The notes under the pieces are model-generated. The model saw only the letters and a list, made by a program, of their open reading frames with translations, was not told where the DNA came from and made no database searches. DNA of 36,424 nucleotides from a virus. Both the position numbers and the translations under genes were made by a program. The stretch spans positions 1 through 36,424 of the IMG/VR virus record IMGVR_UViG_3300046474_000274; one strand, 5' to 3'. The stretch's first letter is position 1; every line of letters begins with the position of its first letter. Below are positions 13,255 through 35,023 of the stretch, one piece after another.

Positions 13255-13273
13255 GATGAATGGACGGGAATAC

Positions 13274-16869: not shown

Positions 16870-16885
16870 GGAAATGGAGTCTCGA

Positions 16886-18208
16886 ATGTCCGAAGAGACG
16901 GCACAGTTCGAATTCGATCCTTCCTTCCAGACGAAGGTTGCTGCGCTGGTGATGCGCGATAGCAACTTCGCGATGAACACCAAGGATCTGATCAAGCCGG
17001 AGTATTTCACTGAGGACGCAGCAGGCACCCTCGTTCGTATCGTGCATGAGCATGTGAAGACCTATCGGTCCGTGCCCGACATGAAGATCCTGCCGACCAT
17101 CTTGCGCGACGAGATCGCCGCAAAGCGCATCCGCCCCGACATGGTGGATCCCGTCAAGAAGATGGTTCGCGAGATCCTGACCACTGATCTCTCAAACCCG
17201 GCCTTCGTCCAGGACAAGGTTGTCGACTTCGCCAAGCACCAGGCCGTTGAAGGCGCGATCATGCAGATCCTCCCGCTTCTCGAGAAGGGGAAGGATTGGG
17301 ACAAGATCGGCCAGCTCATGAAGGACGCCGTCTCGGTCGGCGCAGTAACCGACGGTGGCGACTACGACTACTTCGGGGAAATCGGCAATCGCACCAAGCA
17401 GCGCCACGACCTGAAGGCAGGCAAGGTGGTGCGTTCCGGCATCACGTCCGGCTATGCCGCGATCGACGCTTATCTCTATCACATGGGCTGGGGCCGCAAG
17501 GAACTGTCCTGCATCATGGGCGCTGCCAAGGCTGGCAAGTCCATGTCGCTCGGCGACTTCGGCAAGAACGCGGCGATGGCCGGCTACAACGTGTTCTACG
17601 ACAGCCTCGAAGTGTCGAAGGACATCATCGCCTCGCGTGTCGATGCTGCGCTTTCCGATACGCTGATGAAGGATCTGCACAAGGATCCTGATGCCGTCGA
17701 AAGGGCAATTGCAGCGATCGCTGCAAAGTCCGGCCGGTTCAAGTTGCGCGACCACGCATCCGGCACCTTAAAGCCCACGCAGCTCTACCGCCTGCTGGAG
17801 CAGTATCGCGCCGAAGGCATCATCTTCGACCTGGTGATCGTGGACTACGCCGACATCATGGCCGCGGAATATCGCTCCGACAGTCTGCAGGAGAACCTGC
17901 GCACGATCTACGTCGACCTTCGCGCCATTGCCTACGAAGCCAACTGTGCGCTGCTGACGGCCACTCAGACGAACCGTGACGGCGCGAAGGCTGCGACTGC
18001 CAAGGCGACCGACGTTGGTGACGACTGGAACAAGGCCAGGACCGTCGACATCATGATCGGCATTAATGCCACCGACGCCGAAAAGGCCGCGAATGAAGCC
18101 CGCCTGACCTGGCTGCTCGCGCGTAACGGCGAAAGCGGCTTCTCGCTGCGCATCAAGCAGGATCGCGCCAAGATGCAGTTCCTGACCAAGGTCATCGGGA
18201 AGGAATAA
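16886..18208 (+). CDS. Replicative DNA helicase, DnaB/gp41-like
   Basis: A 440-residue RecA-fold helicase. An N-terminal helical domain (about 1-160) resembles DnaB-N in layout. The C-terminal motor has Walker A GAAKAGKS (residues 212-219), preceded by the typical WGRKELSCIMG strand, and Walker B DLVIVDYADIM, followed by a Q-containing sensor (LTATQTNRDG). This hexameric type unwinds DNA at the phage fork and pairs with the primase encoded 2 bp downstream. The ATG at 16886 is chosen over 16874 because GGAG (16876-16879) is spaced correctly for it. The upstream region has both a promoter box and a perfect operator, so it is likely the head of the helicase-primase unit. Confidence 0.85.
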   Translation: MSEETAQFEFDPSFQTKVAALVMRDSNFAMNTKDLIKPEYFTEDAAGTLVRIVHEHVKTYRSVPDMKILPTILRDEIAAKRIRPDMVDPVKKMVREILTTDLSNPAFVQDKVVDFAKHQAVEGAIMQILPLLEKGKDWDKIGQLMKDAVSVGAVTDGGDYDYFGEIGNRTKQRHDLKAGKVVRSGITSGYAAIDAYLYHMGWGRKELSCIMGAAKAGKSMSLGDFGKNAAMAGYNVFYDSLEVSKDIIASRVDAALSDTLMKDLHKDPDAVERAIAAIAAKSGRFKLRDHASGTLKPTQLYRLLEQYRAEGIIFDLVIVDYADIMAAEYRSDSLQENLRTIYVDLRAIAYEANCALLTATQTNRDGAKAATAKATDVGDDWNKARTVDIMIGINATDAEKAANEARLTWLLARNGESGFSLRIKQDRAKMQFLTKVIGKE

Positions 18209-18210
18209 GC

Positions 18211-19332
18211 ATGGCTCGCCTGTCATTCGAACAGATCCAGGAAGAACTCGACATGGAGTTTCTCCTGGACCGGGAAAGCGTTTCCTATCGCGAGACGCGC
18301 GGCTCCTCGGGCATTCAGCTCAACATCAAGACCTGCCCGAATCCCGCCTGCCGCGACGAGCGCTGGCGCACCTATTTCGGGATCGATAACGGGCAGGGTA
18401 ACTGCTTCGTCTGTAACACGTCCTTCAACAAGCTCCAGTATGTGAACTATCAGTTCGACCACGGCGCCGACAACTGGCGCGCCACCTTCGCGGCGTGCGA
18501 GGAGATCATGCGCGACCAGGGCTACAAGCCCAAGCGCAAGGCAATGGTCCAGGTTATCCACGGCGAGGTCACCCTTCCGGTCTCCGATCCGCTTCCGCTG
18601 CCCGACGGCTCGAACCTGGCCTATCTCGAGCAGCGCGGCTTCGACGCCGAGATCGCCAAGTATTTCGAGCTCCGCTGGTGCCAGTTCGGCTGGTGGAAGT
18701 TCAAGGATGCCGAGGGCGTGACCCAGACGCAGAACTTCGGAAACAGGATCATCATTCCCGTCTTCGACCTCGACGGCAGCTTGAAGACCTTCCAGGGCCG
18801 CGATCTCACCGGAACCTCGCCCAAGAAGTATCTCTTCCCGATGGAGCTTCCGGGAACGGGGCGCTATTTGCTCAACGGGCACAATGTCGTTGCCTGTGAC
18901 CATGTGGTGATGGGCGAGGGGGCTTTCGACGTGGCCGCGATCAAGGTCGCCTTCGACGCCGATCCCGAGCTCCGCAGCGTCGTCCCGGTCGGCTCCTTCG
19001 GCAAGCATCTGTCTTTTGGTTCGTCCGACGGCGATGACCAGCTCGGCCGCTTCATCCAGTTGAAGGCGAGGGGAGTGACGACCGTCACGATCATGTGGGA
19101 TGGCGAGGTCCCGGCGCTGCTGTCGGCCCTCGACGCAGCCAAGATCCTCACCGGCATTGGCTTTAAGGTGCGCATTGCGCTGCTGCCGTTCGACAAGGAT
19201 CCGAACGAAGTCACCGGCGATGTCGTGCGCAAGGCTTTCTACGCCGCGGCGCTCTGGACGCCGAGCCTCGACATTAGATGGCGCCTCAAGAACCCCTATG
19301 CGGCAGAGGCAAAGAAGAAGAGCGCTGCCTGA
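18211..19332 (+). CDS. DNA primase, zinc-ribbon plus TOPRIM
   Basis: A 373-residue DnaG/T7 gp4-type primase. The N-terminal zinc ribbon has C42, C47, C65 and C68 (CPNPAC then CFVC), used to read the priming site. The catalytic region includes a ring-like segment (GNRIIIPVFDLDGSLKTFQGR), a TOPRIM motif with the conserved Glu (VVMGEGAFDVAA) and an acidic metal motif that reads MWDGE where many relatives have D-x-D. There is no helicase domain; the partner helicase is the preceding gene, two bases away, so the two are co-translated. It makes RNA primers for lagging-strand synthesis. The C-terminus is Lys/Ala-rich. Confidence 0.85.
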   Translation: MARLSFEQIQEELDMEFLLDRESVSYRETRGSSGIQLNIKTCPNPACRDERWRTYFGIDNGQGNCFVCNTSFNKLQYVNYQFDHGADNWRATFAACEEIMRDQGYKPKRKAMVQVIHGEVTLPVSDPLPLPDGSNLAYLEQRGFDAEIAKYFELRWCQFGWWKFKDAEGVTQTQNFGNRIIIPVFDLDGSLKTFQGRDLTGTSPKKYLFPMELPGTGRYLLNGHNVVACDHVVMGEGAFDVAAIKVAFDADPELRSVVPVGSFGKHLSFGSSDGDDQLGRFIQLKARGVTTVTIMWDGEVPALLSALDAAKILTGIGFKVRIALLPFDKDPNEVTGDVVRKAFYAAALWTPSLDIRWRLKNPYAAEAKKKSAA

Positions 19333-19337
19333 CGGGA

Positions 19338-19355
19338 TAAGTAATCGAATACTTA
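19338..19355. promoter_or_regulatory. Operator site before WGR gene
   Basis: Perfect half-sites TAAGTA and TACTTA with a diverged spacer ATCGAA. It lies about 30 bp upstream of the CGCTATAA box at 19383, so it would cover the -35 region. Confidence 0.6.
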
Positions 19356-19382
19356 TTTCCTACCGCTTCCCAAGAGCGATCT

Positions 19383-19390
19383 CGCTATAA
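19383..19390 (+). promoter_or_regulatory. CGCTATAA promoter box
   Basis: CGCTATAA with GCGAT at 19376-19380, 9 bp before CTATAA. Predicted transcription start is near 19397, which argues against translation from the ATG at 19398. Confidence 0.5.
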
Positions 19391-19472
19391 CTGAAACATG
19401 AACGACGACGAAGCGGACGAACGAAAGCGCAAGTTAGGCCGCGCGTTCCTCGCTCGGACGAAGAGGAAAGCC

Positions 19473-19997
19473 ATGCTTGTTTACCCGATTAAGTCCAGGA
19501 CGATCTCCCTCGATCACCAGGCCGGCACCAAGTCCTATCACCTGCACCTGATCGAGGCGGCGAACGGCCACTGCGTCGTTATCAACCGCTGGGGCAAGAC
19601 GGGCGCATTCGGCGAAATGAAGGTCGAGACCTTCGACAGCCCGATCGCGGCGCGAAAGGCAATCGACAAGAAGGAAAACGAAAAGACCCGCAAGGGCTAT
19701 CGCCAGGTGGGCGCGGCGCGCGAGACCTCGGCCGAGGACGTATCCGAGCTCGTCAAGGCGATCGGCATGGCCCCGTTCAACAAGATGGGCGCTACGGCCG
19801 TCGAATGGCTCGACCCTGACTTCGACACGTCCGGCATGCGCGAAGCCGACGGTCCTCAGTATGACGAGGACACCGGCCGCAAGCTCGACACGGCGCGCAA
19901 GGCGAACATCGAAGAGGCGCGCGCCGAAGCGCGCCGGCGTGAAGTCGAGACTGCCCAGCAGGCATATGCCGAAAACGATCTCTATGGAAGGTTTTGA
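19473..19997 (+). CDS. WGR-domain protein
   Basis: A 174-residue protein whose first ~85 residues form a WGR domain: YHLHLIEAANGHCVVINRWGKTGAFG contains the W-G-[RK] signature, followed by the FDSPIAARKAI helix. WGR domains bind DNA ends in PARP-type enzymes and occur as stand-alone phage proteins near ligases. The C-terminal half is charged, with an Ala/Arg/Glu-rich helix. The ATG at 19473 is chosen because GAGGAAAG lies just upstream; the earlier ATG at 19398 would sit at the predicted transcription start. It overlaps the next gene as TGATG and is two genes upstream of the DNA ligase, suggesting a nick- or end-recognition partner (inference). Confidence 0.75.
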   Translation: MLVYPIKSRTISLDHQAGTKSYHLHLIEAANGHCVVINRWGKTGAFGEMKVETFDSPIAARKAIDKKENEKTRKGYRQVGAARETSAEDVSELVKAIGMAPFNKMGATAVEWLDPDFDTSGMREADGPQYDEDTGRKLDTARKANIEEARAEARRREVETAQQAYAENDLYGRF

Positions 19998-20566
19998 TGA
20001 TGCGCCAATACCTGACTCTGGATAACGACAACCAGTTCCAGTTCTCGTGCCCGATCTTCAACGTCACGACCAAGATGAGCCTGTGCATGAAGCTGCGCGA
20101 GCTGGTCTGGATGGGCAAGCGCCCTGACGTTCGCAAGGGCTGCCAGGCGTGTATGTCTGCCGGCAAGTGCCCGGCTGCCGCAATTGTCTCGAAGATCTCC
20201 TATGGTCGCGAGGTGCCGGATGAATACGGATCGAGGACGCCGGTCACGGGCAAGCTGCGCAAGGACATCCTGGAGCGGGTTCATCGCCCTATGGTCCTCG
20301 AAAAGACCCTCAACGATTTCGAGGTGCCGGCTGCAGAACGTGAGCTGATCGCCGGCGCATCCGACCGCATCGGCAAGATGATCGGCGCAGCACCGCTGCC
20401 GTCCACTGACGGCCCGCCGAGCCGTTCTGCTTTTGGCGCCGAGACGGCCACTCCCAAGAGCCCGCGCAAGGCAACGCCGAAGGCCGAGAACACCAACACC
20501 CCGACGAACGCCGTCAACGACGCTGCCGCATCCGGCAACCTCGCAGCGGCCATCAACGCAGCGTAA
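19997..20566 (+). CDS. Cys-cluster protein of unknown function
   Basis: A 189-residue protein starting inside the WGR stop codon, with GGAAGG upstream; a second ATG follows at once. The N-terminal half has five cysteines: C18, C30, and a tight C49-x2-C52-x5-C58 (GCQACMSAGKCP). C30 plus the tight cluster gives C-xn-C-x2-C-x5-C, the arrangement used by WhiB-like iron-sulfur proteins, though the rest of the sequence is not obviously WhiB. It could equally bind zinc. The C-terminal ~60 residues are Ala/Pro/Thr/Lys-rich and probably disordered. The gene lies between WGR and ligase genes, so a DNA-related role is possible. A second gene with the same Cys spacing lies at 29406. Confidence 0.6.
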   Translation: MMRQYLTLDNDNQFQFSCPIFNVTTKMSLCMKLRELVWMGKRPDVRKGCQACMSAGKCPAAAIVSKISYGREVPDEYGSRTPVTGKLRKDILERVHRPMVLEKTLNDFEVPAAERELIAGASDRIGKMIGAAPLPSTDGPPSRSAFGAETATPKSPRKATPKAENTNTPTNAVNDAAASGNLAAAINAA

Positions 20567-20575
20567 GGAAAAATC

Positions 20576-22105
20576 ATGGACGCTTATGCAGTCTCGCGCC
20601 TGATCGAAGACATCGGCGCTACGTCGTCGCGCACGGAGAAGGAGACGCTCGTCGGCCAGCTCGGCGCATCCGATCTCGGCAAGTTCGTGCTCACCTGGGC
20701 CTATAATCCCTTCGTCACCTACGGCATCACGCCGGCAAAGTCGGACAATGCTGGCAGGTTCAAGATGGAGTTCAAGGAGAGCCTGGTCGAGCCGCTGCTC
20801 AAGAAGCTGTCGAGCCGCGAGCTGACCGGCATGGCCGCGGAGCGCGAGATCGGCGAGGTCATGGGCGCGCTCGATGAGGATGGCGCCAATCTGCTCTTCC
20901 TGATCCTGTCGAAGGATCTGAAGTGCGGCATTGCCGCAAACACGATCAACCAGGCGGTGCCCGGCCTGATTCCGGTCTTCTCCGTCCAGCGTGCGCAGGC
21001 TTATGAAGCCAAGCGCATGAAGAAGACCATGAAGGGCGAGTTCAAGCTCGACGGAAACCGCAACACCTTCATGTCGAAGGATGGCAATGGCGGGTTCTTC
21101 TCGCGCACCGGCAACCGTGTCGCGCCGCTCGACTTCCTTGTTCCGCCTGTCATGGTGGCTGCATACTACGCCATGCAGAAGGGCAGTGATGCCTTGAAAA
21201 AGGTGCTGATTGGCGATCGCGAGCCTGGACATGCAAGCCTGAACTTCGTCCTCGACGGCGAAGCCATGATGACGCTGTTCGAGGAGACCGGCGCATTCCG
21301 GCGCAAGGATGAAGACGCGCTTGGCGCTGAGCTGCACCTCTACGACATGATGTCCTACGAGGACTTCGATGCCGTTGGTGCTGTCGGCGAACCGCTGCAC
21401 GTCCGTCGCACCTGGGTCGCCGAGTTCGTCAAGCTCGCCAAGGAAGGACTCAAGCGCACTGATGGGGAGGACGCTATCCAGATCGTCCCGCAGTATTTCG
21501 TCAACGACGATAACGAGGTGCAGGCGCTCTTTGAGCGCGCCCGCTCGATGACGCTCGCCAAGTATCTTGCCCGCGGCGACGCCGAGAAGGAAAAGCTGCT
21601 GCTCACCAAGACGATCGACAAGGCGACCGGCCAGCCCAAGGTGCTCGAAGGCATCGTGGTCAAGGATCCCGACGCCCTCTACGAGAAGAAGAAGTCCCAC
21701 GCCTGGATGAAGCTCAAGGCGGAAGAAACCCTCGATCTGCCGATCATCGGTGTCTTCAACGGCCAGGAACATTCCAAGTATGAGAATATCCTGGGCGGCG
21801 TGATCGTCGATCACAAGGGCGTCGAGGTGCGGGTCGGAGGAGGGATCTCCGATGACGCTCGCACCTATCTCTGGTCCCTCTGGGAGAAGGACGCAAAGAT
21901 CATGGGTGTCGATCCGCATGTCGGCTTCAAGGGCGCAGTCCATGACTACGCTGATCTGAAGTCCCTCGGCGCAACCAATCTCATGACCCGTCTCCTCGAG
22001 ACCGAGTTCATGGAAGTGACGCCGGACGGATCACTCCGGCACCCGCGCGCCATTCGCTTCCGTGACGACAAGGACGGAGAAGTCGAAAGCAAGGAGGCCG
22101 CGTAA
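20576..22105 (+). CDS. ATP-dependent DNA ligase
   Basis: A 509-residue nucleotidyltransferase-type ligase. Motif I is GEFKLDGNR with the adenylated lysine K157. Motif III-like NFVLDGEAM and motif IV EGIVVKDPDALY follow, then motif V-like AWMKLKAE. A C-terminal OB-fold region follows, with LGGVIVDHKGVEVRVGGGI and a late RFRDDKDGE stretch. The ~150-residue N-terminal extension before motif I makes it longer than T7 ligase and closer to T4-type ligases. It seals nicks during lagging-strand synthesis and repair. It has an AAGGAA SD and is the last gene of this plus-strand block. A strong bidirectional-looking hairpin follows its stop. Confidence 0.9.
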   Translation: MDAYAVSRLIEDIGATSSRTEKETLVGQLGASDLGKFVLTWAYNPFVTYGITPAKSDNAGRFKMEFKESLVEPLLKKLSSRELTGMAAEREIGEVMGALDEDGANLLFLILSKDLKCGIAANTINQAVPGLIPVFSVQRAQAYEAKRMKKTMKGEFKLDGNRNTFMSKDGNGGFFSRTGNRVAPLDFLVPPVMVAAYYAMQKGSDALKKVLIGDREPGHASLNFVLDGEAMMTLFEETGAFRRKDEDALGAELHLYDMMSYEDFDAVGAVGEPLHVRRTWVAEFVKLAKEGLKRTDGEDAIQIVPQYFVNDDNEVQALFERARSMTLAKYLARGDAEKEKLLLTKTIDKATGQPKVLEGIVVKDPDALYEKKKSHAWMKLKAEETLDLPIIGVFNGQEHSKYENILGGVIVDHKGVEVRVGGGISDDARTYLWSLWEKDAKIMGVDPHVGFKGAVHDYADLKSLGATNLMTRLLETEFMEVTPDGSLRHPRAIRFRDDKDGEVESKEAA

Positions 22106-22109
22106 ACAA

Positions 22110-22137
22110 GCCGCCCGAGCCTAATAGCTCGGGCGGC
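22110..22137. terminator. Bidirectional terminator between ligase and repC blocks
   Basis: An 11-bp, very GC-rich perfect stem (22110-22120 with 22127-22137) and 6-nt loop. Plus-strand reading runs into an AT-rich stretch; minus-strand reading runs into TTGTTTA. It lies exactly between two convergent gene blocks, as expected for a shared terminator. Confidence 0.75.
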
Positions 22138-22334: not shown

Positions 22335-23459
22335 TTAGCGGCGCGCAAGATCTTTCGATAGGCGTTGAATCTCGTTTGCTAAATTCAACTGTCCGGCTTT
22401 GATCAAACGGACCATCGCCCTGAAATAGCCGCCCGCGTTCTTGATCGGATCCGATCCTGGCGCGGGCCGCGTTTGCATCTGCACCACGTAAACCAGCGTG
22501 GCCGACGCGCCGAGCGCCCCGATTTCACGGGTCGCCTCCTCCCAGCCGGACGCGGACACCCCAAAAGCGCCCCGCATGCGCGACACGCCCATAATCAGGT
22601 CGCGGTCGCTGCGCACATCGCCTATAAACTCCATCGCATCAGGGCAAGCTCTCGCCAAATCGCCGGCGTCCAGGCTGATGCTCGGCCGTTCCGGCTCCCT
22701 CACATCATCAGAGCCGTTGTTACAAGACTGGTCAGGGGCATATTTGTTGTTGTCTTTGTGACGGCAAGAATTGCCGGCAGAGGCGGCGTAATATCTACCT
22801 TCTGCTTCTTCCCTGATCGAGCGCCAGGCTTCTCGGGCGTCGTCGGCCGATCCCGCTCCAGACCTGCGTGGCGTGACTCTAGCGAGCTCAAGGGCGCGCG
22901 CCGTCAGTTCGGTGATGTCGATGCTCGGGAAAGTCTCTGCAAGCGCCCTGAGAGCCTCCTGCGCCGATCTGCGATGGATGGTGAGCTCGTCAAAGGCTGC
23001 CGCTCGCTCGCGCTCCATATCTTTGATCGCCTGGAGCTGATCGCGGAGCTCCGGCAGGCGCGCAAGGAGAGGGGAGAGGTCGAAGCCATATGCCTTGACG
23101 ATCTGGCCCCGCAGCGATCGCTGCGCGAACCGTTTGCCGTTCGGGCTGTCCTTGGCGCCGATCACACCATCGGCAAGCAGCCGGGCAAGCGCATAGCGAA
23201 CGGATCGCTCTGGAATGCCGGTGCGCTCGACCAGGAATTCGTTCGACGGCCAGACGAGCATCCGGTTTTCGATCAGCTCCCCACCGTAGACGCCGACGAG
23301 CTGGTCGAGGACGAACCTGCAGCTTGACGGTAGTTTCAGCACGCGGGCAGCCGCCCGCGCCGCCTCGTAGAGGACTTGTTTGTCCGCTGTGTCTGGCTCT
23401 TCGGCCGACGGGAGCGTCGGCTTTAGAGCGCGCCAGCCGGACGACTGTGCGCTTCTCAT
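22335..23459 (-). CDS. repC: Plasmid-type replication initiator RepC
   Basis: A 374-residue protein resembling RepC of repABC plasmids, where RepC is the initiator and the origin lies inside its gene. The N-terminal winged-helix region includes LVWPSNEFLVERTG, RSVRYALARLLADGVI, then the hallmark DSPNGKRFAQR and YGFDLSPLLAR. A helical middle follows (ELRDQLQAIKDMERERAA), then a low-complexity Asn/Asp/Lys insert encoded by AT-rich DNA, and a C-terminal domain ending NAGGYFRAMVRLIKAG, close to the family's GGYLR..T end. The ATG at 23459 is chosen over an upstream ATG at 23501 because AAAGGGA precedes it and because that SD is part of a control hairpin. No repA or repB is nearby. Confidence 0.85.
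   Translation of the reverse strand: MRSAQSSGWRALKPTLPSAEEPDTADKQVLYEAARAAARVLKLPSSCRFVLDQLVGVYGGELIENRMLVWPSNEFLVERTGIPERSVRYALARLLADGVIGAKDSPNGKRFAQRSLRGQIVKAYGFDLSPLLARLPELRDQLQAIKDMERERAAAFDELTIHRRSAQEALRALAETFPSIDITELTARALELARVTPRRSGAGSADDAREAWRSIREEAEGRYYAASAGNSCRHKDNNKYAPDQSCNNGSDDVREPERPSISLDAGDLARACPDAMEFIGDVRSDRDLIMGVSRMRGAFGVSASGWEEATREIGALGASATLVYVVQMQTRPAPGSDPIKNAGGYFRAMVRLIKAGQLNLANEIQRLSKDLARR
22690..22795. other. Candidate origin region inside repC
   Basis: This is the most AT-rich stretch within repC and encodes the low-complexity Asn/Asp/Lys insert. In studied repABC plasmids the origin is an AT-rich region in the middle of repC. By analogy this is the likely origin; no iteron repeats were seen. 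Confidence 0.4.
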
Positions 23460-23539
23460 GGTTATCCCTTTCACAGGGCAACGCTTCGCCGTTCGCCTCA
23501 AATAGGCGTTGACAAATCAGCGGTGATTCGGGATAACCA
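23459..23539 (-). promoter_or_regulatory. repC leader switch: SD-sequestering inverted repeat
   Basis: Two perfect 10-bp complementary arms lie at 23459-23468 and 23530-23539. On the repC mRNA the downstream arm covers the SD (AAAGGGA) and the first base of the start codon; the upstream arm lies just after the antisense RNA target. Pairing would hide the ribosome site. This matches the S-element of repABC plasmids, where antisense RNA binding favours the closed form and lowers RepC synthesis. Confidence 0.7.
23509..23537 (+). promoter_or_regulatory. Promoter of the antisense RNA
   Basis: TTGACA (23509-23514), a 17-bp spacer and GATAAC (23532-23537) read plus-strand, opposite to repC. This is the best -35 in the window. 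Predicted start is near 23544. The -10 overlaps the upstream arm of the repC leader switch. Confidence 0.65.
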
Positions 23540-23543
23540 AAGT

Positions 23544-23624
23544 GCTTGATAGCTCTGGTGTCCCGACGGTCACTATCTAATTTCGAAGGCTCTAGGATTG
23601 GCGTCCTGGAGCCTTCAGCGTTTT
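23544..23624 (+). ncRNA. Candidate ctRNA antisense to the repC leader
   Basis: A ~80-nt RNA predicted on the strand opposite to repC, from the TTGACA promoter to a T run at 23621-23624. It ends with a 13-bp hairpin (arms starting at 23585 and ending at 23616, 6-nt loop TTGGCG, one G-U pair). repABC plasmids carry such an RNA (ctRNA) in the leader just upstream of repC, where it controls copy number and incompatibility. Position, strand, size and terminal hairpin all agree. The spacing between hairpin and T run (AGCG) makes the terminator imperfect. Transcript ends are estimates. Confidence 0.65.
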
Positions 23625-23630
23625 AAGCCC

Positions 23631-23828
23631 TTAGTTTCGTTCCTGAATTAACTTGTTAAGGGCAGCCGCAACGGCTTCAGACCGATTGCGGAACTCACCC
23701 GACTTGACCAGTTCGTCCAAACGTGTCGTCAGACGGTTCTCGATCCACAGAAGAACCTGCTTCTCGCCTCGCGCTTCACGCTTGACGCGATATCTCTCAG
23801 ACGCCGTAATGTCGCTTTGGATGCCCAT
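23631..23828 (-). CDS. Ribbon-helix-helix DNA-binding protein
   Basis: A 65-residue protein with a CopG/Arc-like ribbon-helix-helix fold: a basic N-terminal arm, then a beta-strand (KQVLLWIEN), helix A (LTTRLDELVKSG) and helix B (RNRSEAVAAALNKLI). Such dimers bind short operators through the paired beta-strands and often repress their own promoter or plasmid rep/par genes. The ATG at 23828 is chosen; a TTG six bases upstream is also in frame. The gene is upstream of and codirectional with repC, with the antisense RNA between them, so it occupies the place of repAB in repABC plasmids. An inverted repeat at 23852-23871, upstream of its start, is a candidate operator. Confidence 0.75.
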   Translation of the reverse strand: MGIQSDITASERYRVKREARGEKQVLLWIENRLTTRLDELVKSGEFRNRSEAVAAALNKLIQERN

Positions 23829-23851: not shown

Positions 23852-23871
23852 ATCACTACATCGCTAGTGAT
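23852..23871. promoter_or_regulatory. Inverted repeat, candidate RHH operator
   Basis: ATCACTA-N6-TAGTGAT, perfect 7-bp arms, starting 24 bp upstream of the RHH start codon. It is unrelated to the TAAGTA operator family. Autoregulation is typical of RHH proteins; binding here is inferred. Confidence 0.45.
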
Positions 23872-24009
23872 CGCCCGATTCTGCTGATTTGTGAAGTCCC
23901 CAATATCCACAACAGCCATAGGTAGACGCCGAGGAACGTTTCTTGCATAAGATGCATTATGGAACAGGCGCGGATTTAAGCGGTTGTGGTCAAGCCCGGT
24001 TCGTCAACA

Positions 24010-24027
24010 TAAGTATGTATTGACTTA
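24010..24027. promoter_or_regulatory. Operator site before Cro/CI-type regulator
   Basis: TAAGTA-TGTATT-GACTTA, one mismatch in the right half-site; flanking A and T extend the symmetry. About 48 bp upstream of the CGCTATAA box of the regulator gene, so the regulator may be a member, or the controller, of the regulon. Confidence 0.55.
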
Positions 24028-24074
24028 TTTTTTCGTTATGGTCTAAGGGCGACGCAGCGATCCCTTTCAAGTCG

Positions 24075-24145: not shown

Positions 24146-24538
24146 ATGGCAACGCAAACAGGAACACCGACGCGGTTTTCCAACTACATATTTAAGAAAC
24201 TCATGGAGTCGCCGAAGTCTCAGAAGGAGATCGCGGACGCCGTGGGCTACAAAAACCAAAACATGATCACCATGCTCAAGCAGGGTCATGTAAAGCTCGC
24301 ACTCGACAGAGTGCCGGCAATGGCTAAGGCTCTCAACATAGATCCGCTCGATCTGTTCAAGATCGCGCTGACCCAATTCTATGACGACGCTGCCTGCCGG
24401 ATGCTGACAGACATCATAGAGGCTGGCAATTCCGCCCAAGAGCGGAAGATACTCCAGATAGTGCGCGACGCTTCCGGCGATGCCACGCCCCTCCTGACAC
24501 CAGAGCGCGAGAAGAAGCTGGCAGAGATATTCGGCTAA
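24146..24538 (+). CDS. Cro/CI (XRE)-type helix-turn-helix regulator
   Basis: A 130-residue protein with a lambda-repressor-like DNA-binding domain in residues about 10-70: SQKEIADAVGY (helix 2), NQNMITMLKQG (recognition helix) and LALDRVPAMAKALNIDPLDL (following helices, with the family's A.AL.I....L pattern). The C-terminal ~55 residues are helical and charged, without a LexA-type protease domain, so it is not a cleavable repressor. The ATG at 24146 has AGGGAAC upstream and lies downstream of the predicted transcription start; an in-frame ATG at 24086 does not. One copy of the 18-bp phage operator lies in its upstream region, making it a candidate for the operator-binding protein. The gene ends at a clear terminator. 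Confidence 0.72.
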   Translation: MATQTGTPTRFSNYIFKKLMESPKSQKEIADAVGYKNQNMITMLKQGHVKLALDRVPAMAKALNIDPLDLFKIALTQFYDDAACRMLTDIIEAGNSAQERKILQIVRDASGDATPLLTPEREKKLAEIFG

Positions 24539-24931: not shown

Positions 24932-27331
24932 ATGAACCGCGATATCATCGAACTGCGCGAGGTCGTTCAGAAGCTCGTGCCTCTGCTCGCCGGCAAGGGT
25001 CTTGTCGTAACGCAGCGCGGATCGCAGGCTTATGTCACGACCAATCCGCGCACGAAGCAGCCGGAGACGGTCAACATTCCAAACATTCCGGACACCGCCA
25101 ATTCCGAGTTCATCGCGGCGATCTCCGGCTTTATCGACCACGAAGTCGCGCACGTCCTGCATACCGATTGGCATTGGTATGGGGGCAAGGGCGGCATGAG
25201 CGAAGCCGATCTTCGCAACCCGAAGCGCCGCGCATTCATGAACACCCACAACATCCTCGAAGACGTGATGATCGAGCGGGAGATGATCAAGACGTTCCCC
25301 GGCTCGGCGCGGAACATCGCGACCACGCGCAAGTGGTTCCTCGAAAAGATCACCGACGAGGCGCTCAAGGGCGTCAAGGATCCCAAGGAGCAGTTTCGCT
25401 ACATCCTGGTTCCGATGATGCGCGCGCTCGGCGGTCACGAGGAAATGCAGGACTGGATGGACAAGCGCGGCTTCTGGAAGCATCCGCTGGTCGACGAGCT
25501 CCTCAAGACGATGAAGCCGGCGACCCTCGAGCTGCTGAAGACCTGCACCACGACGCGCGAGACCTGCACGATCGCCGAGGAGGTTCACGACATTCTGACC
25601 GGCAAGATCCTGCCGCCTCCCCCTCCTGCCCCGCCCGCGCCGCCTGTGGCACCCCCTCCTCCGAAGCAGGAGAAGGGCAAGTCGAAGGACAAGCCCGACC
25701 AGGAAGCCGCTGAGGGTGATGGCGACGGTGAACGCGATCACAAGGACAAGAAGCCTGGCAAGAACGGCAAGGGCGCAAAGTCCGCGGCCGACTATGAAGG
25801 CGAGGCTGAGCCCGATAAGTCCGACAAGTCCGACAAGTCCGATAAATCGGATAAGTCAGACAAGAAGGACAAGAAGGACAAGAAGGACAAGCCTGAGCCG
25901 AAGTCCAAGGATGAAACTGGCGATGAAGACGAGAAGGACGGCGAGAAGGACGAAGAAACTGACGCCGACGGCTCTGGCGCTGATGATGGCCCCGAGGAGG
26001 AGTCCGACGACGATGACACCGGCGATACCGGTGACGGCGATGATAGCGAGAGCAACGACGAGCCGTCGGACAAGCCTGATCGCGGATATGAGGATCAGGA
26101 CGACGAAGGAGACGACGGCTCTGCCGGTGCTTCTGAGGATGATGACGACGCCGGAGGTTCGGCAGGCGGTGAATCGGGCGACGATGGCGATGACGATGAG
26201 GACGAAGGCCGTCGCAATCACGTCTCGGAAGTCACTACGTCCGGCGCTGATGGCGGTGGTGTAGGCGAGGTCGGCGAAGGATCCGACCAGGAAAGCCAGG
26301 GAGGAGGAGGAGGCGTCGGTAACGGTGGCGCCAAGAGCCTCTTCGACTACGACGACGACGCCTTCGAAAAGGTCGACATGTCCTCGCAGATCGCAATCAA
26401 GATCTCCGACGCGGCCGTCGCTGCGATGAACCCTCGCGAGTATCTCGTCTTCAGCCGCGAGCTTGACGAAATCAAGCCGGTGCCGGTGCCTTCCACCATG
26501 GACCCGACCTGGGTTCCGGAGATGGAAGACGAAACGCGCCAGATGACCTCGAAGATGCAGAAGGACATCGAGCGCATGATGGCGTCTCAGTCCCATGTCA
26601 TCCGCACGCCTGGTCATCGTAGCGGCAAGCTGCATGCGCCGTCGCTGTTCCGCGTTCCGCAGGGCGACCCGCGCGTGTTCTCGCAGAAGCAGGAGCATGA
26701 GAGCAAGGACACGGCCGTCTCGGTCGTGATCGACAACTCCGGCTCGATGGGTGGTCCGAAGATGGCGCTCGCCATGACGGCCGGCTATGCGCTCTGCTCC
26801 ACGCTCGATCGCGTCAAGATCGCCAACGAGGTTATCGGCTTCACGACGGGCGGTTGGGGTGGAATGCCCGCCTCGATGCGCGAGGCGATGGCCAACGACG
26901 CAAAGGCCGCGCGCATCAGTTGGGATCGCACGACGCCGCTGGTGCTGCCGATCTACAAGACCTTCGACGAGCGTCTGACCGCAACGGTCAAGGCTCGCTT
27001 CGCCTTCATGAAGAATGCGCAGGCAGGTCTGGCCGGCAACGTCGACGGCGAGTCCCTCGAATACGCAGCCGAACGCCTGCTCAAGCGCAGCGAGAAGCGC
27101 AAGGTCATGCTGGTGTTGTCCGACGGTCAGCCGGCCGGCAGCCACAAGTGCGGCCCTCACCTGACGTATGTCGTCCAGCAGCTCGGGAAGATGGGCATTG
27201 AGTGCGTCGGTATCGGCATCATGGACGACTCCGTGAGCCGGTTCTACCCGAAGTATACGGTCCTCAAGAAGGCCCAGGACTTGCCCACCCAGGTCATGTC
27301 CGAAATCAAGAAGATCCTCACGTCGATCTGA
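24932..27331 (+). CDS. cobT: CobT-like VWA protein with zincin-like N-terminal domain
   Basis: A 799-residue protein in three parts. Residues about 1-230 carry a zinc-metallopeptidase-like motif H70-E71-x2-H74 (IDHEVAHVLH) and a possible third ligand in NILEDVMIERE (about 108-118). Residues about 230-470 are a Pro run followed by an extremely acidic, low-complexity linker with Lys/Ser/Asp repeats. Residues about 590-799 are a von Willebrand A domain with the MIDAS motif D601-N-S-G-S605 and a later SDGQP. This architecture matches the CobT subunit of aerobic cobalt chelatase and its phage relatives, which pair with a CobS AAA+ ATPase; that gene follows. No CobN is visible, so B12 synthesis is unlikely here. 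The role is unknown, perhaps chaperone-like remodelling. Confidence 0.72.
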   Translation: MNRDIIELREVVQKLVPLLAGKGLVVTQRGSQAYVTTNPRTKQPETVNIPNIPDTANSEFIAAISGFIDHEVAHVLHTDWHWYGGKGGMSEADLRNPKRRAFMNTHNILEDVMIEREMIKTFPGSARNIATTRKWFLEKITDEALKGVKDPKEQFRYILVPMMRALGGHEEMQDWMDKRGFWKHPLVDELLKTMKPATLELLKTCTTTRETCTIAEEVHDILTGKILPPPPPAPPAPPVAPPPPKQEKGKSKDKPDQEAAEGDGDGERDHKDKKPGKNGKGAKSAADYEGEAEPDKSDKSDKSDKSDKSDKKDKKDKKDKPEPKSKDETGDEDEKDGEKDEETDADGSGADDGPEEESDDDDTGDTGDGDDSESNDEPSDKPDRGYEDQDDEGDDGSAGASEDDDDAGGSAGGESGDDGDDDEDEGRRNHVSEVTTSGADGGGVGEVGEGSDQESQGGGGGVGNGGAKSLFDYDDDAFEKVDMSSQIAIKISDAAVAAMNPREYLVFSRELDEIKPVPVPSTMDPTWVPEMEDETRQMTSKMQKDIERMMASQSHVIRTPGHRSGKLHAPSLFRVPQGDPRVFSQKQEHESKDTAVSVVIDNSGSMGGPKMALAMTAGYALCSTLDRVKIANEVIGFTTGGWGGMPASMREAMANDAKAARISWDRTTPLVLPIYKTFDERLTATVKARFAFMKNAQAGLAGNVDGESLEYAAERLLKRSEKRKVMLVLSDGQPAGSHKCGPHLTYVVQQLGKMGIECVGIGIMDDSVSRFYPKYTVLKKAQDLPTQVMSEIKKILTSI
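25814..25891 (+). repeat. 9-bp tandem repeat in the acidic linker
   Basis: About 8.7 units of a 9-bp repeat (GA[CT]AAGTCC changing to GACAAGAAG) encode Asp-Lys-Ser, then Asp-Lys-Lys triplets. In-frame units make length changes by slippage easy and harmless to the frame. Confidence 0.85.
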
Positions 27332-27336
27332 AAAAA

Positions 27337-27354
27337 AAAGTAAGCGGGGACTTA
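27337..27354. promoter_or_regulatory. Degenerate operator-like site
   Basis: AAAGTA-AGCGGG-GACTTA, one mismatch per half-site against the TAAGTA-N6-TACTTA consensus. It overlaps the left arm of a hairpin and lies 28 bp from the perfect operator at 27383. Confidence 0.35.
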
Positions 27355-27365
27355 TTTCCCCGCTT
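27342..27365. terminator. Hairpin between CobT- and CobS-like genes
   Basis: A 9-bp stem (27342-27350 with 27357-27365) and 6-nt loop, preceded by a run of nine A. On the plus strand there is no T run after it; on the minus strand it is followed by nine T, a perfect intrinsic terminator for leftward transcription. Confidence 0.5.
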
Positions 27366-27381
27366 GCGTCCCACGTCAGAA

Positions 27382-27401
27382 ATAAGTAAGAGCTTACTTA
27401 T
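27382..27401. promoter_or_regulatory. Operator site before CobS-like gene
   Basis: Perfect 9-bp arms around AG; core TAAGTA-AGAGCT-TACTTA at 27383-27400. TCAGAA (27376-27381), 17 bp, TATAGC (27399-27404) repeats the geometry of the promoter/operator at 2166. Confidence 0.65.
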
Positions 27402-27440
27402 AGCGCAACGCGAAAGCGCTTCATCACAAGAGGGAATGAC

Positions 27441-28757
27441 ATGAGCCAGGCTATTGAAGCTGGCGCAGCGGCAACTGCGTCGGACGGGAAGATTCTGTGC
27501 CACATCGACAATGTGCGCGTTCATACAATCCAGGGTCACATCAAGAAGACCCATCCCGATTGGACCATCGAGCGGTATCAAGCCGAGTTTCCCGGCGAGC
27601 CGCTTTTCTCTGAGACCGCAAAGGCGTTGATGGCGAAAGCCGAGGCTGAAAAGGCCCAGGCAGCCGCTGTAGCGCCCGGCGCCGATGCCGCTGATATTCA
27701 GGCGCAGATGGTTGCGGCAGCGACCGGTGTCGCCGCGCCGAAGATCACCGTCAAGCAGGCGTTCTTCCACGAGCTGTTCGAACTCGGCAACGCGCCGGCC
27801 GCTCTGTCGGCCAAGGGTCAGCCGATCCCGATCAAGGTTCTCGAAGGCCACGACGCCGGCTCGGCCGACTATCTGCCGGACCTCGATAAGTCCTACGTCT
27901 TCAACATCGACCTGTTGAAGAAGGTCATCATCGGCTTTGAGCTGAACATGCCGACCTATCTCTGGGGCTTTCACGGCACCGGCAAGACGACGGTCCTGCA
28001 GCAGGCGGCAGCCCGCACGCGCCGTCCGTTCATTCGTGTTCAGCATACGATCAACATGCAGGAGTCCGACGTGCTCGGACAGTGGACGGTTCGCTCCAAG
28101 GCTGTCGAAGTCGAGGTGCTCGATCCGACCGGCGCCAAGGTCAAGGTCATTCAGCAGCAGTCCGTCACCGAGTTCCAGCTCGGGCCGCTTCCGATGGCAA
28201 TGATCAACGGCTGGGTCTATTGCGCCGACGAATACGACTTCGCGATGCCCTCCGTCACCGCGGTCTATCAGCCGGTTCTCGAAGGCCAGGCGTTGCTGAT
28301 CAAGGACGCTCCTCCGCACTTCCGCAAGATCGTGCCGCATCCGAACTTCCGCTTCGTCGCGACCGGAAACACCAACGGTGTCGGCGATGAAACCGGCCTC
28401 TACCAGGGCACGCTGGTTCAGAACGCAGCCAACTATTCGCGCTTCGCGATCACCGAAGAAGTCGAATACATGGAAGCGAAGATCGAGACCGCGATCCTGC
28501 AGTCGAAGACCGGCATCGATGCTGCATCGGCTTCCAAGATCGTCAAGATGGCGAACGAAGTCCGCAAGCTGTTCCGTGATGGCAAGATCACCATGACGGT
28601 CTCGCCGCGCGAGCTGATCCGCTGCGCGTCTCTTGGTATCGCCTACGGCGGCAATTGGACGCTCGGCATGGAGCTCGCCTTCGCCAACCGTCTGTCGCGC
28701 GTCGATAAGAAGGTCGTGCAGGAATACATGCAGCGCGTATTCGGAGGCGCAGCATGA
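27441..28757 (+). CDS. cobS: CobS/MoxR-like AAA+ ATPase
   Basis: A 438-residue AAA+ ATPase of the CobS/MoxR type. The N-terminal ~110 residues include a CobS-like small domain (ILCHIDNVRVHTIQGHIKKT). The ATPase core has Walker A GFHGTGKT (residues 176-183), Walker B with D263-E264 (YCADEYDF), a sensor Asn region (FVATGNTNG) and a late arginine-containing SPRELIRCA sensor 2 segment. MoxR-type ATPases work with VWA proteins as metal-insertion or protein-remodelling chaperones, and the VWA partner is the preceding gene. It has its own operator and RBS (AGAGGGA), so the pair can be regulated separately. It overlaps the next gene as ATGA. Function in the phage is unknown. Confidence 0.8.
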   Translation: MSQAIEAGAAATASDGKILCHIDNVRVHTIQGHIKKTHPDWTIERYQAEFPGEPLFSETAKALMAKAEAEKAQAAAVAPGADAADIQAQMVAAATGVAAPKITVKQAFFHELFELGNAPAALSAKGQPIPIKVLEGHDAGSADYLPDLDKSYVFNIDLLKKVIIGFELNMPTYLWGFHGTGKTTVLQQAAARTRRPFIRVQHTINMQESDVLGQWTVRSKAVEVEVLDPTGAKVKVIQQQSVTEFQLGPLPMAMINGWVYCADEYDFAMPSVTAVYQPVLEGQALLIKDAPPHFRKIVPHPNFRFVATGNTNGVGDETGLYQGTLVQNAANYSRFAITEEVEYMEAKIETAILQSKTGIDAASASKIVKMANEVRKLFRDGKITMTVSPRELIRCASLGIAYGGNWTLGMELAFANRLSRVDKKVVQEYMQRVFGGAA

Positions 28758-29405: not shown

Positions 29406-29954
29406 ATGACGACCATTCCCCATCTGGCGCCGGGCTGCTTTGGTTCAGCCCTCGCATTCAAAAAGGACGACACCGTCTGCCGCGGATGCAAGTTCTTGAG
29501 CTTGTGTGAGCCCGCTCACCTCGAGGCTCAGAAGGTCTTGCGCGAGCGCTACGGCATCAAGACGACCCAGGAAGTGCTTGCCGATCAGAAGCAGGCGCGT
29601 GAAGCCGAAAAGGCCGCCCGTGAGGCGAACCGCAACGAAGCAGTCTTGGTGCTGCCGAAGAAGACCCAGGAACTGATCGATAGGCTCGATCGTGGAAATT
29701 ACGATGTGAAGGGCAAGTTCGCCCGCGGTGAGAACCCGTTCGGACAGTCCATGCGCTTCATGCAGATCGTCGGCCATCTGCTCCTCAATCTCAAGAACGT
29801 CCGGCTCGACCGGGCGCTGATCGCAACCGCCTTCGTCAAGAAGCTCGAATGGCAGCAGGGCACCGCAGACGCGCATGCCCGCATGGCAATTCAGGCGCTC
29901 GAACACGTCGGCGCAATCATCAACAACGACGGCGTTATCGCCCTCAAGGGGTAA
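29406..29954 (+). CDS. Cys-cluster protein with WhiB-like spacing
   Basis: A 182-residue protein. Its N-terminus has four cysteines: C11-x13-C25-x2-C28-x5-C34 (VCRGCKFLSLCEPAH). This is the C-xn-C-x2-C-x5-C layout of WhiB-type [4Fe-4S] proteins, and ...C..A.L right after the last Cys recalls that family, but WhiB proteins are actinobacterial and no G-[VI]-W-G-G motif is seen. Zinc binding is an alternative. A charged linker (about 45-80) leads to a helical C-terminal domain (MRFMQIVGHLLLNLKNVRLDRALIATAF). It lies between the sigma-like gene and the polymerase, 4 bp from the latter, so a role in transcription control or the replisome is plausible. Confidence 0.6.
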   Translation: MTTIPHLAPGCFGSALAFKKDDTVCRGCKFLSLCEPAHLEAQKVLRERYGIKTTQEVLADQKQAREAEKAAREANRNEAVLVLPKKTQELIDRLDRGNYDVKGKFARGENPFGQSMRFMQIVGHLLLNLKNVRLDRALIATAFVKKLEWQQGTADAHARMAIQALEHVGAIINNDGVIALKG

Positions 29955-29958
29955 TTCG

Positions 29959-32900
29959 ATGCACTCGATCCTTGCAGCGCGGACTGATTTCTCAGTCGGC
30001 GAAAGCATCCTCACGACCAAGGTTCTGATCAAGAACGCCGTCGATGCGGGCGCAAAGGCGATCGCCATGACCGACACGATGTCCGTCACCGGTATGATCG
30101 ACTTCACCAACAAGGCCAAGGCCGAAGGCTTGAAGCCGGTCATCGGCTGCCGGCTGCGTCTGTCTGATAATCCGACCTGGCGCCCTGGCGACGGCGAGAA
30201 GAAGAAGGATATGCCGCGTTCCTACTTCCTGACCGTCTACGCGCTCAAGGAAGCCGGCATCAAGGCGATCTTCCGGCTGCTGACGCTGGCGAACTCCGAC
30301 GACCGCTTCTATTACGTGGCCAAGCTCGGCTTCGAGGATCTCTATGCGGAGTTGAAAGGGTTGGCCGGCGACGATCTCGCGATTGTGCTTGGTGATGCCC
30401 ATTCGGTTCTGGAGCATCCGAATGTCGACGATATCGTCCTGGAGCTCAATGACCAGGTTGAAATGATCTATGCGCCGCTGGTCCCGATCGACACGCCCTA
30501 TTACGGGCGCTTGAACGAATTGGCACTGCGGCAGATCAGTCTTGGCGCCGTCAAGCCGATCGTCGTGCGTCCGGCCTTCTACGGCCAGGGTGAAGCCGAC
30601 ACCCAGGAGATCATGACCGCGATCTCCGAGAACCATAAGGTGACCGATCCATGGTTCCGCTCGCGCCACAATCGCGACATGCACGTCATGGGTAACGCCG
30701 AGCTCGTCGGCGAAATGAAGAAGGCTGTCGCCCATCTGGTCAAGCGCGGCAATGATCCGTCGGCTACCGCTTTGAAGTTCAAGGAAGGGCTGTTCAACAC
30801 CGCAATGCTGGTCGCCGCCGTAGAATACGAATGGAAGAAGGCTGCGGTCTCGCTTCCGATCATGGCGCCGGACGAGTTTGCGGCCGTCGTCGAGGAGTGC
30901 AAGAAGGGCTGGAAGCTCCGTTTCGCCGCGCCGATCTTCGGGCATCAGCCGGACGCGAAGGAACTGGTCGAGGTCTATAAGCCGCGCCTCGCCTACGAGC
31001 TCGAAACCCTCAAGCGGTTGAACTTCTCGGGCTACTTCCTGCTCGTGCAGGACGTGGTGCAGTTCGCGAAAAACTCGGGCATCATGGTCGGTCCTGGTCG
31101 TGGTTCCGTGGGCGGATCCCTTGTCGCTTATCTGATGGGCATTACCGAGTGCGATCCGATCCGCTTCGGACTGCTGTTTGAGCGCTTCATCAATCCGGAA
31201 CGTATCGACTTGCCCGACGCCGATCTCGACTTCATGTCCGAGCGCCGGCACGAGATTTTCGAATACCTCACCAAGAAGTATGGCGAGAAGCGGGTAGCTG
31301 GCGTCAACAACTACGGAACGCTCGGCTCCGCATCCGCGATCCGCGATGTCGGCCGCGTGACGCTCATCCCCGAAAAGGACTATTCCGTCTCGAAGTTCGT
31401 GCCGAAGCTGCACGGCCAGAACGTGCCGCTGCCCGAGGCGCGCAAGCAGGTCGCCGATATTGACGACTTCGCCAATCACTATCCGGGCCACTGGCCGATC
31501 ATGGAGCGCCTCGAGGGCACGATCCGCAATTTCAGCCAGCACGCGGGCGGCGTCATCGTCGGCGGGGTCGATATCGTCGACCGTGCGGTCGTTGAGCGGC
31601 GCAAGGACGGCAACGTCGTCTGCTGGGACAAGCGCATCGTTGAAGACCAGGGTCTGGTCAAGATGGACGTTCTCGGGCTCAACACGCTCGACCTGATGAC
31701 CCTGACGCTCGACTATATCCGCGAAAATACCGGCAAGCGTCTCGATCTTAACCGCATCCCTCTCGATGACGAGAAGGTGCTGGCGAACTTCGCCAAGGCG
31801 AACACGACCGCGATCTTTCAGTTTGAGTCCGGAGGCATGCGCCGGCTCTTGAAGGAGCTCGGCTCGACCGGCGTCATCACGTTTGAGGATATCACGGCTG
31901 CAACCGCTCTCTACCGCCCTGGTCCGATGGAGTCGGGGATGATGGACAGCTTCTATCTGCGCAAGCAGGGCCATGAGGAAATCGAATACGACCATCCGCT
32001 GATGGAGCCGGTGCTCGAGGAAACCTTCGGCGTTATCGTCTACCAGGAACAGGTCATGAAGATCTCCCAGGTGATCGCCGGCTACTCCGGCGCGGCCGCT
32101 GACAAGCTCCGCAAGATCATGGGTAAGAAGCTGCCGGAGGAGATGAAGAAGGAGCGGAAGAAGTTCTGCGACGGCTGTGTCGCGACGATCGCCTGCACCG
32201 AGGATTGGGCCGGTGCCCTTTTCGACAAGATCGAAGGCTTCGCCGGCTACGGCTTCAATAAGTCTCACTCGGTCGAATACACCCTGATCTCCTACCAGGC
32301 CATGTATTTGAAGACCTACCATCCGGCCGAGTTCTACGCCGCGGCGTTGACCGTTCAGAAGGAAGAGAAGCTGACGGGTATCATCCGTGATGCGAAGTCG
32401 CTTGGTATCGACGTGTCGATGCCCGACATCAATATATCGACCGATCGCTTCGAAATGGCAACGCCTGTGCGCCTGGTCATGCCGCTGCAGCGCATCAAGG
32501 GTCTGTCCGAAAAGGCGACCACCGCAATTCTCGAGGCCAGGAAGTCGGGACTGTTTGCCGACAAGAACGACTTCCTGGCCCGCGTGGAGAAGCGGGTCTG
32601 TAATAAGCGCGTCCAGGAGGCTCTCGATCTCGTCGGCGCCTTTGCGCGCATCGAGCCTGGTCAGAAGGCCGCAAACGATCCGAGCCGCATCAAGGACCAG
32701 ATCGAGCTGCTGCCGGGCCTGGTCGCTGGCCACGTTCCCATCGAGCACGAGCTGGAGAAGGACAAGGACACGAAGGAAGCGCTCGGCGAGCTCGTGGACG
32801 AATACCGCGCAGCGCATGGCCCCAAGGCAACGATGACTGACGGATATCCGGTCAAGCCGTTCTTTGGCCGCGATGCCGACTTCATGATCATTTCGGACGC

Positions 32901-34938: not shown

Positions 34939-34961
34939 CGCTATAAGTAAGTAGCTAGATA
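34939..34961 (+). promoter_or_regulatory. SSB promoter box with partial operator
   Basis: CGCTATAA at 34939-34946. TTGAGC (34917-34922) lies 18 bp before CTATAA and GCGAT (34921-34925) 20 bp before it. TAAGTA-N6-TAGATA at 34944-34961 has one perfect and one damaged half-site, so repression of SSB may be weaker. Three TAGCT copies follow to 34973. Confidence 0.5.
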
Positions 34962-35023
34962 GCTGGATAGCTATCAAGGCAAGTCGAAAGCACAAAGCAC
35001 AAAAGCACGAAGGAACTAAGCAT

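Follow-up and report, generated by a model that had tools for sequence, protein, structure and literature searches.

A RepC replication unit in a circular phage genome: evidence for a candidate phage-plasmid

What does repC, a gene for a plasmid-type replication initiator, do in a phage genome that also encodes a replisome of its own? The question is raised by a minus-strand gene in bases 1-36424 (36,424 bases, hereafter the window) of the 120,956-base virus record IMGVR_UViG_3300046474_000274. Based on the analysis presented here this phage of root-nodule bacteria is most likely maintained as a circular plasmid in the host cell by means of its own RepC replication unit, a reading to which we assign a probability of roughly 0.87. 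All new points on this phage are computational.

The repC gene and its candidate internal origin

22335-23459, minus strand: repC, replication initiator (374 amino acids, ATG at 23459)
23631-23828, minus strand: gene of a 65-residue ribbon-helix-helix (RHH; CopG/ParD/NikR-like) protein, upstream of repC
22700-22814 (core 22725-22784), minus strand: candidate replication origin (oriV) in repC, codons about 216-253

The original prediction, made from the sequence alone, had treated positions 22335 to 23828 as one RepC unit of a candidate phage-plasmid. The observation of a minus-strand RepC-like gene was confirmed with corrected boundaries. Stop codons interrupt the frame and divide it into two genes; repC accounts for the part up to 23459, whereas the RHH gene had been wrongly merged with it.

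The repC product was recognised as a full-length RepC by Pfam, NCBIfam and PHROG. The proposed profile search against RepC families gave matches above the curated cut-offs to Pfam RP-C (E 4e-38) and RP-C_C (E 6e-14) and to NCBIfam RepABC_RepC (192 bits, curated cut-off 150), together with a match to PHROG 22671 (E 6e-98). RepC is the single match of its kind in the whole phage record and shares 67-76% identity with the proteins of 10 Rhizobium phage records and 95% with that of an IMG/VR relative; a RepC search of genome contigs returned no relative. A fold search gave weak results only; among the partial matches DnaD, aligning with its N-terminal domain, was the most plausible.

The original prediction had referred to RepC as the initiator of repABC megaplasmids, with the origin inside its own gene. 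A maximum likelihood tree places the protein of the phage outside the sampled repABC RepC: 25 RepC rows from phages, phage-plasmids and Hyphomicrobiales plasmids stand apart from repABC RepC with support values of 100/99, in a small sampling with three repABC RepC. According to this tree the RepC of the window belongs to a separate clade. The rep region of an Agrobacterium plasmid, taken as a repABC comparator, was left out of the comparisons. The RepC of Acuticoccus, which has repA and parB nearby in divergent orientation, falls within the large RepC group.

The A+T content of the inner gene peaks at one common position, about codons 209-267, in 24 of the 25 repC genes compared. Synonymous identity, compared among family members with less than 85% amino-acid identity, reaches 0.78-0.95 at codons of about 216-250 versus about 0.5 over most of repC, and the best 20-codon window (codons 226-245, positions 22725-22784) was not reached by any of 2000 column permutations. 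This test of synonymous excess replaced a codon-level invariance count (8 codons), which alone was judged too strict. A low-confidence, disordered linker is predicted at RepC residues 230-261, and constraint on the protein is therefore a poor explanation for the frozen codons. Plasmid p42d no longer replicates when silent mutations are placed at repC positions 658-822 (PMC3155836); the frozen stretch in the phage gene, positions 646-750, lies at the place of this proven origin. Taken together, the support for a predicted origin inside repC is strong but indirect.

Between the convergent ligase and repC genes a strong stem (22110-22137) was observed which could be used as a terminator from either side.

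Predicted control of repC expression

23509-23537, plus strand: promoter of an antisense (counter-transcribed) RNA, ctRNA (-35 TTGACA, 17-nt spacer, -10 GATAAC)
23545-23624, plus strand: predicted ctRNA, antisense to the repC leader (terminator stem 23585-23616)
23480-23622, minus strand: repC mRNA leader (helix of 23618-23622 with 23480-23484, plus a hairpin just past the ctRNA promoter)
23515-23528: dyad AATCACCGCTGATT within the ctRNA promoter, lying between its -35 and -10; candidate operator for the RHH protein
23852-23871: inverted repeat ATCACTA-N6-TAGTGAT upstream of the RHH gene, candidate operator for autoregulation by the RHH protein
24146-24538, plus strand: XRE-type helix-turn-helix (HTH) regulator, candidate lysogeny repressor, divergent from the RHH-repC unit
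24009-24028: inverted repeat ATAAGT-N8-ACTTAT upstream of the XRE gene, different from the RHH dyads; candidate operator of a repressor

The plus-strand antisense RNA candidate that had been suggested upstream of repC gained support from a conserved promoter and a covarying stem; it sits between the RHH gene and repC, inside the range formerly given to the RepC unit. Its promoter is nearly invariant across Rhizobium phage and plasmid loci, the TTGAC being invariant in all 22 loci compared, which include Rhizobium phages as well as elements of Methylobacterium and Microvirga, and the exact promoter 29-mer occurs in 7 viral contigs. The terminator consists of a 14-pair stem followed by a short T-run, and the predicted ctRNA fold (-34.6 kcal/mol, z -4.4) was equalled in none of 200 shuffles. 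Over the 22 loci 97.9% of the stem cells are paired, in comparison with only 23-63% in slid control structures, and changes on both sides of the stem occur in 31 cells versus 8.2 in shuffles, at 7 of 13 pairs. A consensus promoter and terminator scan of the window did not flag the ctRNA, since its -10 is not TATAAT-like and its T-run is short. Searching Rfam with the threshold relaxed to E 1 likewise yielded nothing in the window or near repC.

The repC leader folds with a z of -4.7. Its long-range helix is paired in 98.9% of cells and shows more covariation than any of 500 shuffles or any slid control, and the hairpin after the ctRNA promoter is found, with changing sequence, in most of 18 loci. 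The ctRNA of repABC operons is known to repress repC and to act in incompatibility (PMC3155836, PMC10194956), and in p42d a terminator can form in the repC leader once the ctRNA has paired with it (PMC3155836). By analogy, pairing of the ctRNA may lead to terminator formation in the repC leader of the phage as well.

The RHH gene lies upstream of repC in every clade member examined except Acuticoccus, where none is evident. PGAP names the gene of the relatives “ribbon-helix-helix domain-containing protein”, and the phage protein gives weak profile matches to ParD antitoxins/NikR and to CdrS. The dyad in the ctRNA promoter is the sole place in the window within one mismatch and is kept as a dyad with varying centre in relatives, in which the repeat before the RHH gene is also present or partly retained. 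Both candidate operators have ATCAC/GTGAT arms in common, and the RHH protein may bind at both.

The XRE regulator matches HTH_3 just under the cut-off (E 1e-4) and falls among the PHROG transcriptional regulators; its start was picked to agree with the 393-nt genes of the relatives. The 8-nt-spaced repeat of its upstream region recurs in six loci (L003, L013, L017, L019, L027 and L028).

Genome form, partition and alternative explanations

16874-22105, plus strand: phage replication genes (Pfam/PHROG)
16874-18208, plus strand: DnaB-like helicase (Pfam/PHROG)
18211-19332, plus strand: DnaG-like primase (Pfam/PHROG)
20576-22105, plus strand: ATP-dependent ligase (Pfam/PHROG)
29875-33324, plus strand: phage DNA polymerase III alpha (Pfam DNA_pol3_alpha, E 4e-72)
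Record 95988-96641, minus strand: ParA, small (217 amino acids), without HTH (NF041546 ParA_partition, E 2e-22, below cut-off)
34952-34973: array of three TAGCTA units with 8-bp spacing, candidate centromere site, one of 13

The identical 127-bp direct repeat at the ends of the record indicates a closed circle of 120,829 bp. Genes for tail, lysozyme, terminase and capsid are encoded in the same circular genome as repC and parA. The lack of an integrase, previously stated for the window, was borne out in the complete genome for tyrosine integrases (PF00589) and serine recombinases (PF00239), neither of which was found in the whole record, the positive controls being detected. Also present is the full lytic-type replisome described in the original prediction, with DnaB-like helicase, primase, Pol III alpha, ligase and an SSB-like protein.

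The same RepC and gene order occur in the Rhizobium phages RHEph10, RHph_X66, B1VFA, V1VFA-S and others. Relatives in the form of circular plasmids of 115-120 kb, namely pLM21S1 (Sinorhizobium), pRlX6 (R. beringeri) and plasmids of Shinella and Pararhizobium, keep this gene order around repC. The proposed phage-plasmid is supported by the RepC match, the lack of an integrase and the existence of relatives both as plaque-forming phages and as circular plasmids. In the record of pRlX6 many genes including repC are split by frameshifts, which are probably assembly errors.

The parA gene is followed by the gene of an 82-residue protein with a weak RHH_10 match. Arrays of TAGCTA at 8-bp spacing were found at 13 places in the genome versus none in Markov controls, 10 of them outside every open reading frame of at least 60 amino acids. 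Among spacings of 6-15 there are nine strict arrays at spacing 8, two at 12 and none at others. The arrays are densest near the parA operon and flank it (record 96651-96688 and 95724-95752), palindromic TAGCTA arrays being noted in the record region 90199-97805, and they are also present in X66, V1VFA-S and pRlX6. In phage RedRock 8-bp repeats are the ParB sites at two parS loci (PMC7157519), and on plasmid pMF1 the type Ib sites bound by ParB are dispersed and built of 8-bp repeat units (PMC3235114). Given these precedents and the position of the arrays around parA, they likely constitute a dispersed candidate centromere.

Two tandem ParB_N-domain proteins, called ParB in relatives, are encoded before the terminase (stretch L007:9649-11048). 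Due to this position away from parA the published “parB” genes were set aside as the partition partner.

As a prophage the 120.8-kb circle would stay unintegrated, with RepC binding the A+T-rich frozen stretch in its own gene (about 22700-22814) and initiating theta-type replication at low copy number. The RHH protein, probably co-transcribed with repC, would repress its own operon and perhaps also the ctRNA promoter, while pairing of the ctRNA with the repC leader would disrupt the long-range helix so that the attenuating hairpin forms. Loss of the circle would be prevented by the small ParA and its RHH protein acting on the dispersed TAGCTA arrays. In the lytic state replication would presumably be carried out by the phage's own helicase, primase and Pol III alpha.

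Alternatively, RepC might be an origin-binding initiator for lytic replication only, similar to O-type proteins, in a phage that forms no plasmid prophage. The phage owns a replisome, its relatives were isolated as plaque formers, and RepC shows weak matches to O-like replication families. However, sequenced bacteria contain such elements as circular plasmids of 115-120 kb, the genome has a dedicated partition module along with candidate centromere arrays, control by ctRNA and RHH protein fits a low copy number and not lytic bursts, and repC transcription runs against the replication genes. Taking this into account, a purely lytic role seems improbable. Even less probable is that the RHH-ctRNA-repC cassette represents a captured plasmid fragment whose role is incompatibility with, or exclusion of, competing plasmids and phages, and which is not the phage's own replicon. 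This would agree with the isolated cassettes of symbiosis plasmids in which RepC matches also occur elsewhere, with the exclusion of the cognate replicon by p42d RepC itself (PMC3155836) and with the finding that CopG in the recipient prevents establishment of cognate pMV158 (PMC5717011). In the phages, however, the cassette is the only plasmid-type replication system found, and it occurs in elements kept as plasmids, its RepC and internal origin being strongly constrained. The TAGCTA arrays, for their part, could be stoperator-like operators of a repressor silencing phage genes at numerous sites, as their dispersed and mostly intergenic location may indicate. In view of their highest density on both sides of the parA operon and of the ParB-bound 8-bp repeats in RedRock and pMF1, the latter dispersed too, this seems unlikely.

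Persistence as a RepC-driven circular plasmid thus remains the preferred reading, against which several points have to be set. The case for this phage comes from sequence analysis. Mitomycin C did not induce pLM21S1 (PMC4447125), so that lysis and plasmid state are so far on record for different elements. The integrase search covered the two families PF00589 and PF00239. The RHH assignment is derived from weak profile matches; the model of the monomer shows only helix at the ribbon in place of the strand, and a fold search with it gave nothing significant. The RHH operators were assigned from dyads only, and the long-range helix of the leader varies on both sides at two pairs only.

Further observations concern other genes of the phage. 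The C-terminus of Pol III alpha carries a uracil-DNA glycosylase-like domain (PF03167, residues 997-1132, E 1e-12), a fusion which looks unusual. Positions 24932-28757 of the window encode a CobT-like VWA protein and a CobS/MoxR-like AAA ATPase. The pair is labelled as cobalamin genes in the literature; in our own judgement a MoxR-VWA chaperone-type pair is more likely. A sigma-70 region 2 protein of the phage (window 28754-29398), conserved across the group, may direct late transcription. ARAGORN detected a tRNA with a four-base anticodon (tcag) at record positions 51691-51764, which could be a degenerate or a frameshifting tRNA. A 618-residue open frame at window positions 13256-15112 is without Pfam match, no equally sized annotated gene was found there in the stretches of relatives that were read, and it may not be a gene.

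Relation to known systems

The phage-plasmid idea is already published for this group (PMC4447125, PMC5537653, PMC12509600). The plasmids pLM21S1 and pRlX6 were described as “plasmid-like prophages” (2015) and “phage-plasmid-like” (2025), and B1VFA and V1VFA-S were reported in 2025 as possible prophage-plasmids with parA, parB and repC (PMC12509600). Our phage shares with the RHEph10/pLM21S1 group the location of repC between the ligase and the CobT-like gene, the RHH gene, the XRE regulator, parA and a circular genome of about 115-122 kb which joins phage structural genes with plasmid replication and partition genes; for pLM21S1 no integrase was reported either. It is a separate genome and a new member of the group, with a RepC 67-76% identical to those of the phage records and 95% to that of an IMG/VR relative.

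The RHH-ctRNA-origin unit, the ParA/RHH type of partition and the arrays are not described in the published texts on the group consulted here, and no paper on the RHH-ctRNA-RepC unit was found in the open-access literature searched, which omits most subscription papers. Due to this confinement the novelty of the unit is provisional. With the same proviso, we regard the RHH-ctRNA-RepC unit without repAB, the conserved promoter and covarying hairpin of its ctRNA, the frozen codons at the place of the p42d origin, the predicted partition arrays and the apparently captured copies on symbiosis plasmids as new.

The arrangement RHH-ctRNA-repC without repAB is common to this RepC clade. Phage-type cassettes were also detected on clover-rhizobia plasmids of 154-318 kb (stretches L024:11634-13122, L025:11634-13149 and L026:12001-13152), and the RHH-ctRNA segment is present on ten such plasmids with 84-86% identity. 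In the tree the RepC of pRLb1, pRlX2 and pRL9b2, which are conjugative or symbiosis plasmids, is nested within the phage proteins, beside that of the window (100/99). On these plasmids the cassette stands alone, its annotated neighbours within 12 kb being nif, metabolic and mobile-element genes and not phage genes. Further RepC places in most of these plasmid records suggest that another replication system is present. Since the RepC nests among phage RepC and the cassette is found without phage genes, capture from a phage is the simplest reading, and the cassettes on the symbiosis plasmids were probably acquired in this way.

It is conceivable, though rather doubtful, that the RHH-ctRNA-RepC units form a distinct lineage of alphaproteobacterial phage-plasmid replicons with dispersed RHH-bound centromeres, and that the captured cassette blocks incoming phage-plasmids by incompatibility. 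If true, ctRNA, RHH protein and RepC acting in trans would represent a plasmid-borne immunity built from the phage's own copy control, and cassette-bearing symbiosis plasmids could decide which phage-plasmids lysogenise agriculturally important rhizobia. What was a “phage with a repC gene” thus becomes a defined replicon open to testing, with a mapped candidate origin, a mapped predicted antisense RNA, a candidate repressor and candidate centromeres. A possible path of phage copy-control genes into symbiosis plasmids is suggested as well. The small replicon (about 1.5 kb) might also be of use for Rhizobium vectors.

With repABC systems such as p42d the unit has in common the RepC initiator, the candidate origin inside repC at the same relative position and the upstream ctRNA, which lies at the same place and has a similar GGCCCC..GGGGCC terminator sequence. 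In contrast, the neighbours of repC in the phage are the RHH and ligase genes and not repA and repB, neither of which was found beside repC or at parA, the only places where they were looked for. The ParA of the phage is encoded far from repC and is not RepA. No exact match to the 16-bp parS sequence GGTNNGNGCNCNNACC was detected in the window or the compared loci, which is a weak test as the repABC loci also gave none. Solo repC modules (pRmeGR4a, pSmeLPU88b) likewise consist of repC without repAB and an upstream ctRNA. They are said always to ride plasmids also bearing repABC (PMC10194956), whereas in the phage-plasmid no RepC replicon other than this one was found, and an RHH gene precedes its repC.

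The partition module resembles type Ib systems in its small ParA and in the TAGCTA arrays near the operon on both sides; the small protein of the next gene (82 amino acids, weak RHH match) may be the centromere-binding partner. RedRock and pMF1 combine ParA, a small DNA-binding protein and 8-bp repeats; the sequences differ, and the centromere function of the arrays in the phage is putative.

In its layout the control region is comparable to the copG-RNAII-repB region of pMV158, in which an antisense RNA separates a small upstream repressor gene from the gene of the initiator (PMC5717011), and in outline the same circuit shape is known from copB-CopA-repA of R1 (PMC5717011, PMC4485353). The initiators of both plasmids are unrelated to RepC, pMV158 replicates by rolling circle, and the RHH protein of the phage lacks a Pfam CopG match. 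By analogy, the RHH-ctRNA-repC circuit thus appears to resemble those of pMV158 and R1 in its working, while being a member of neither.
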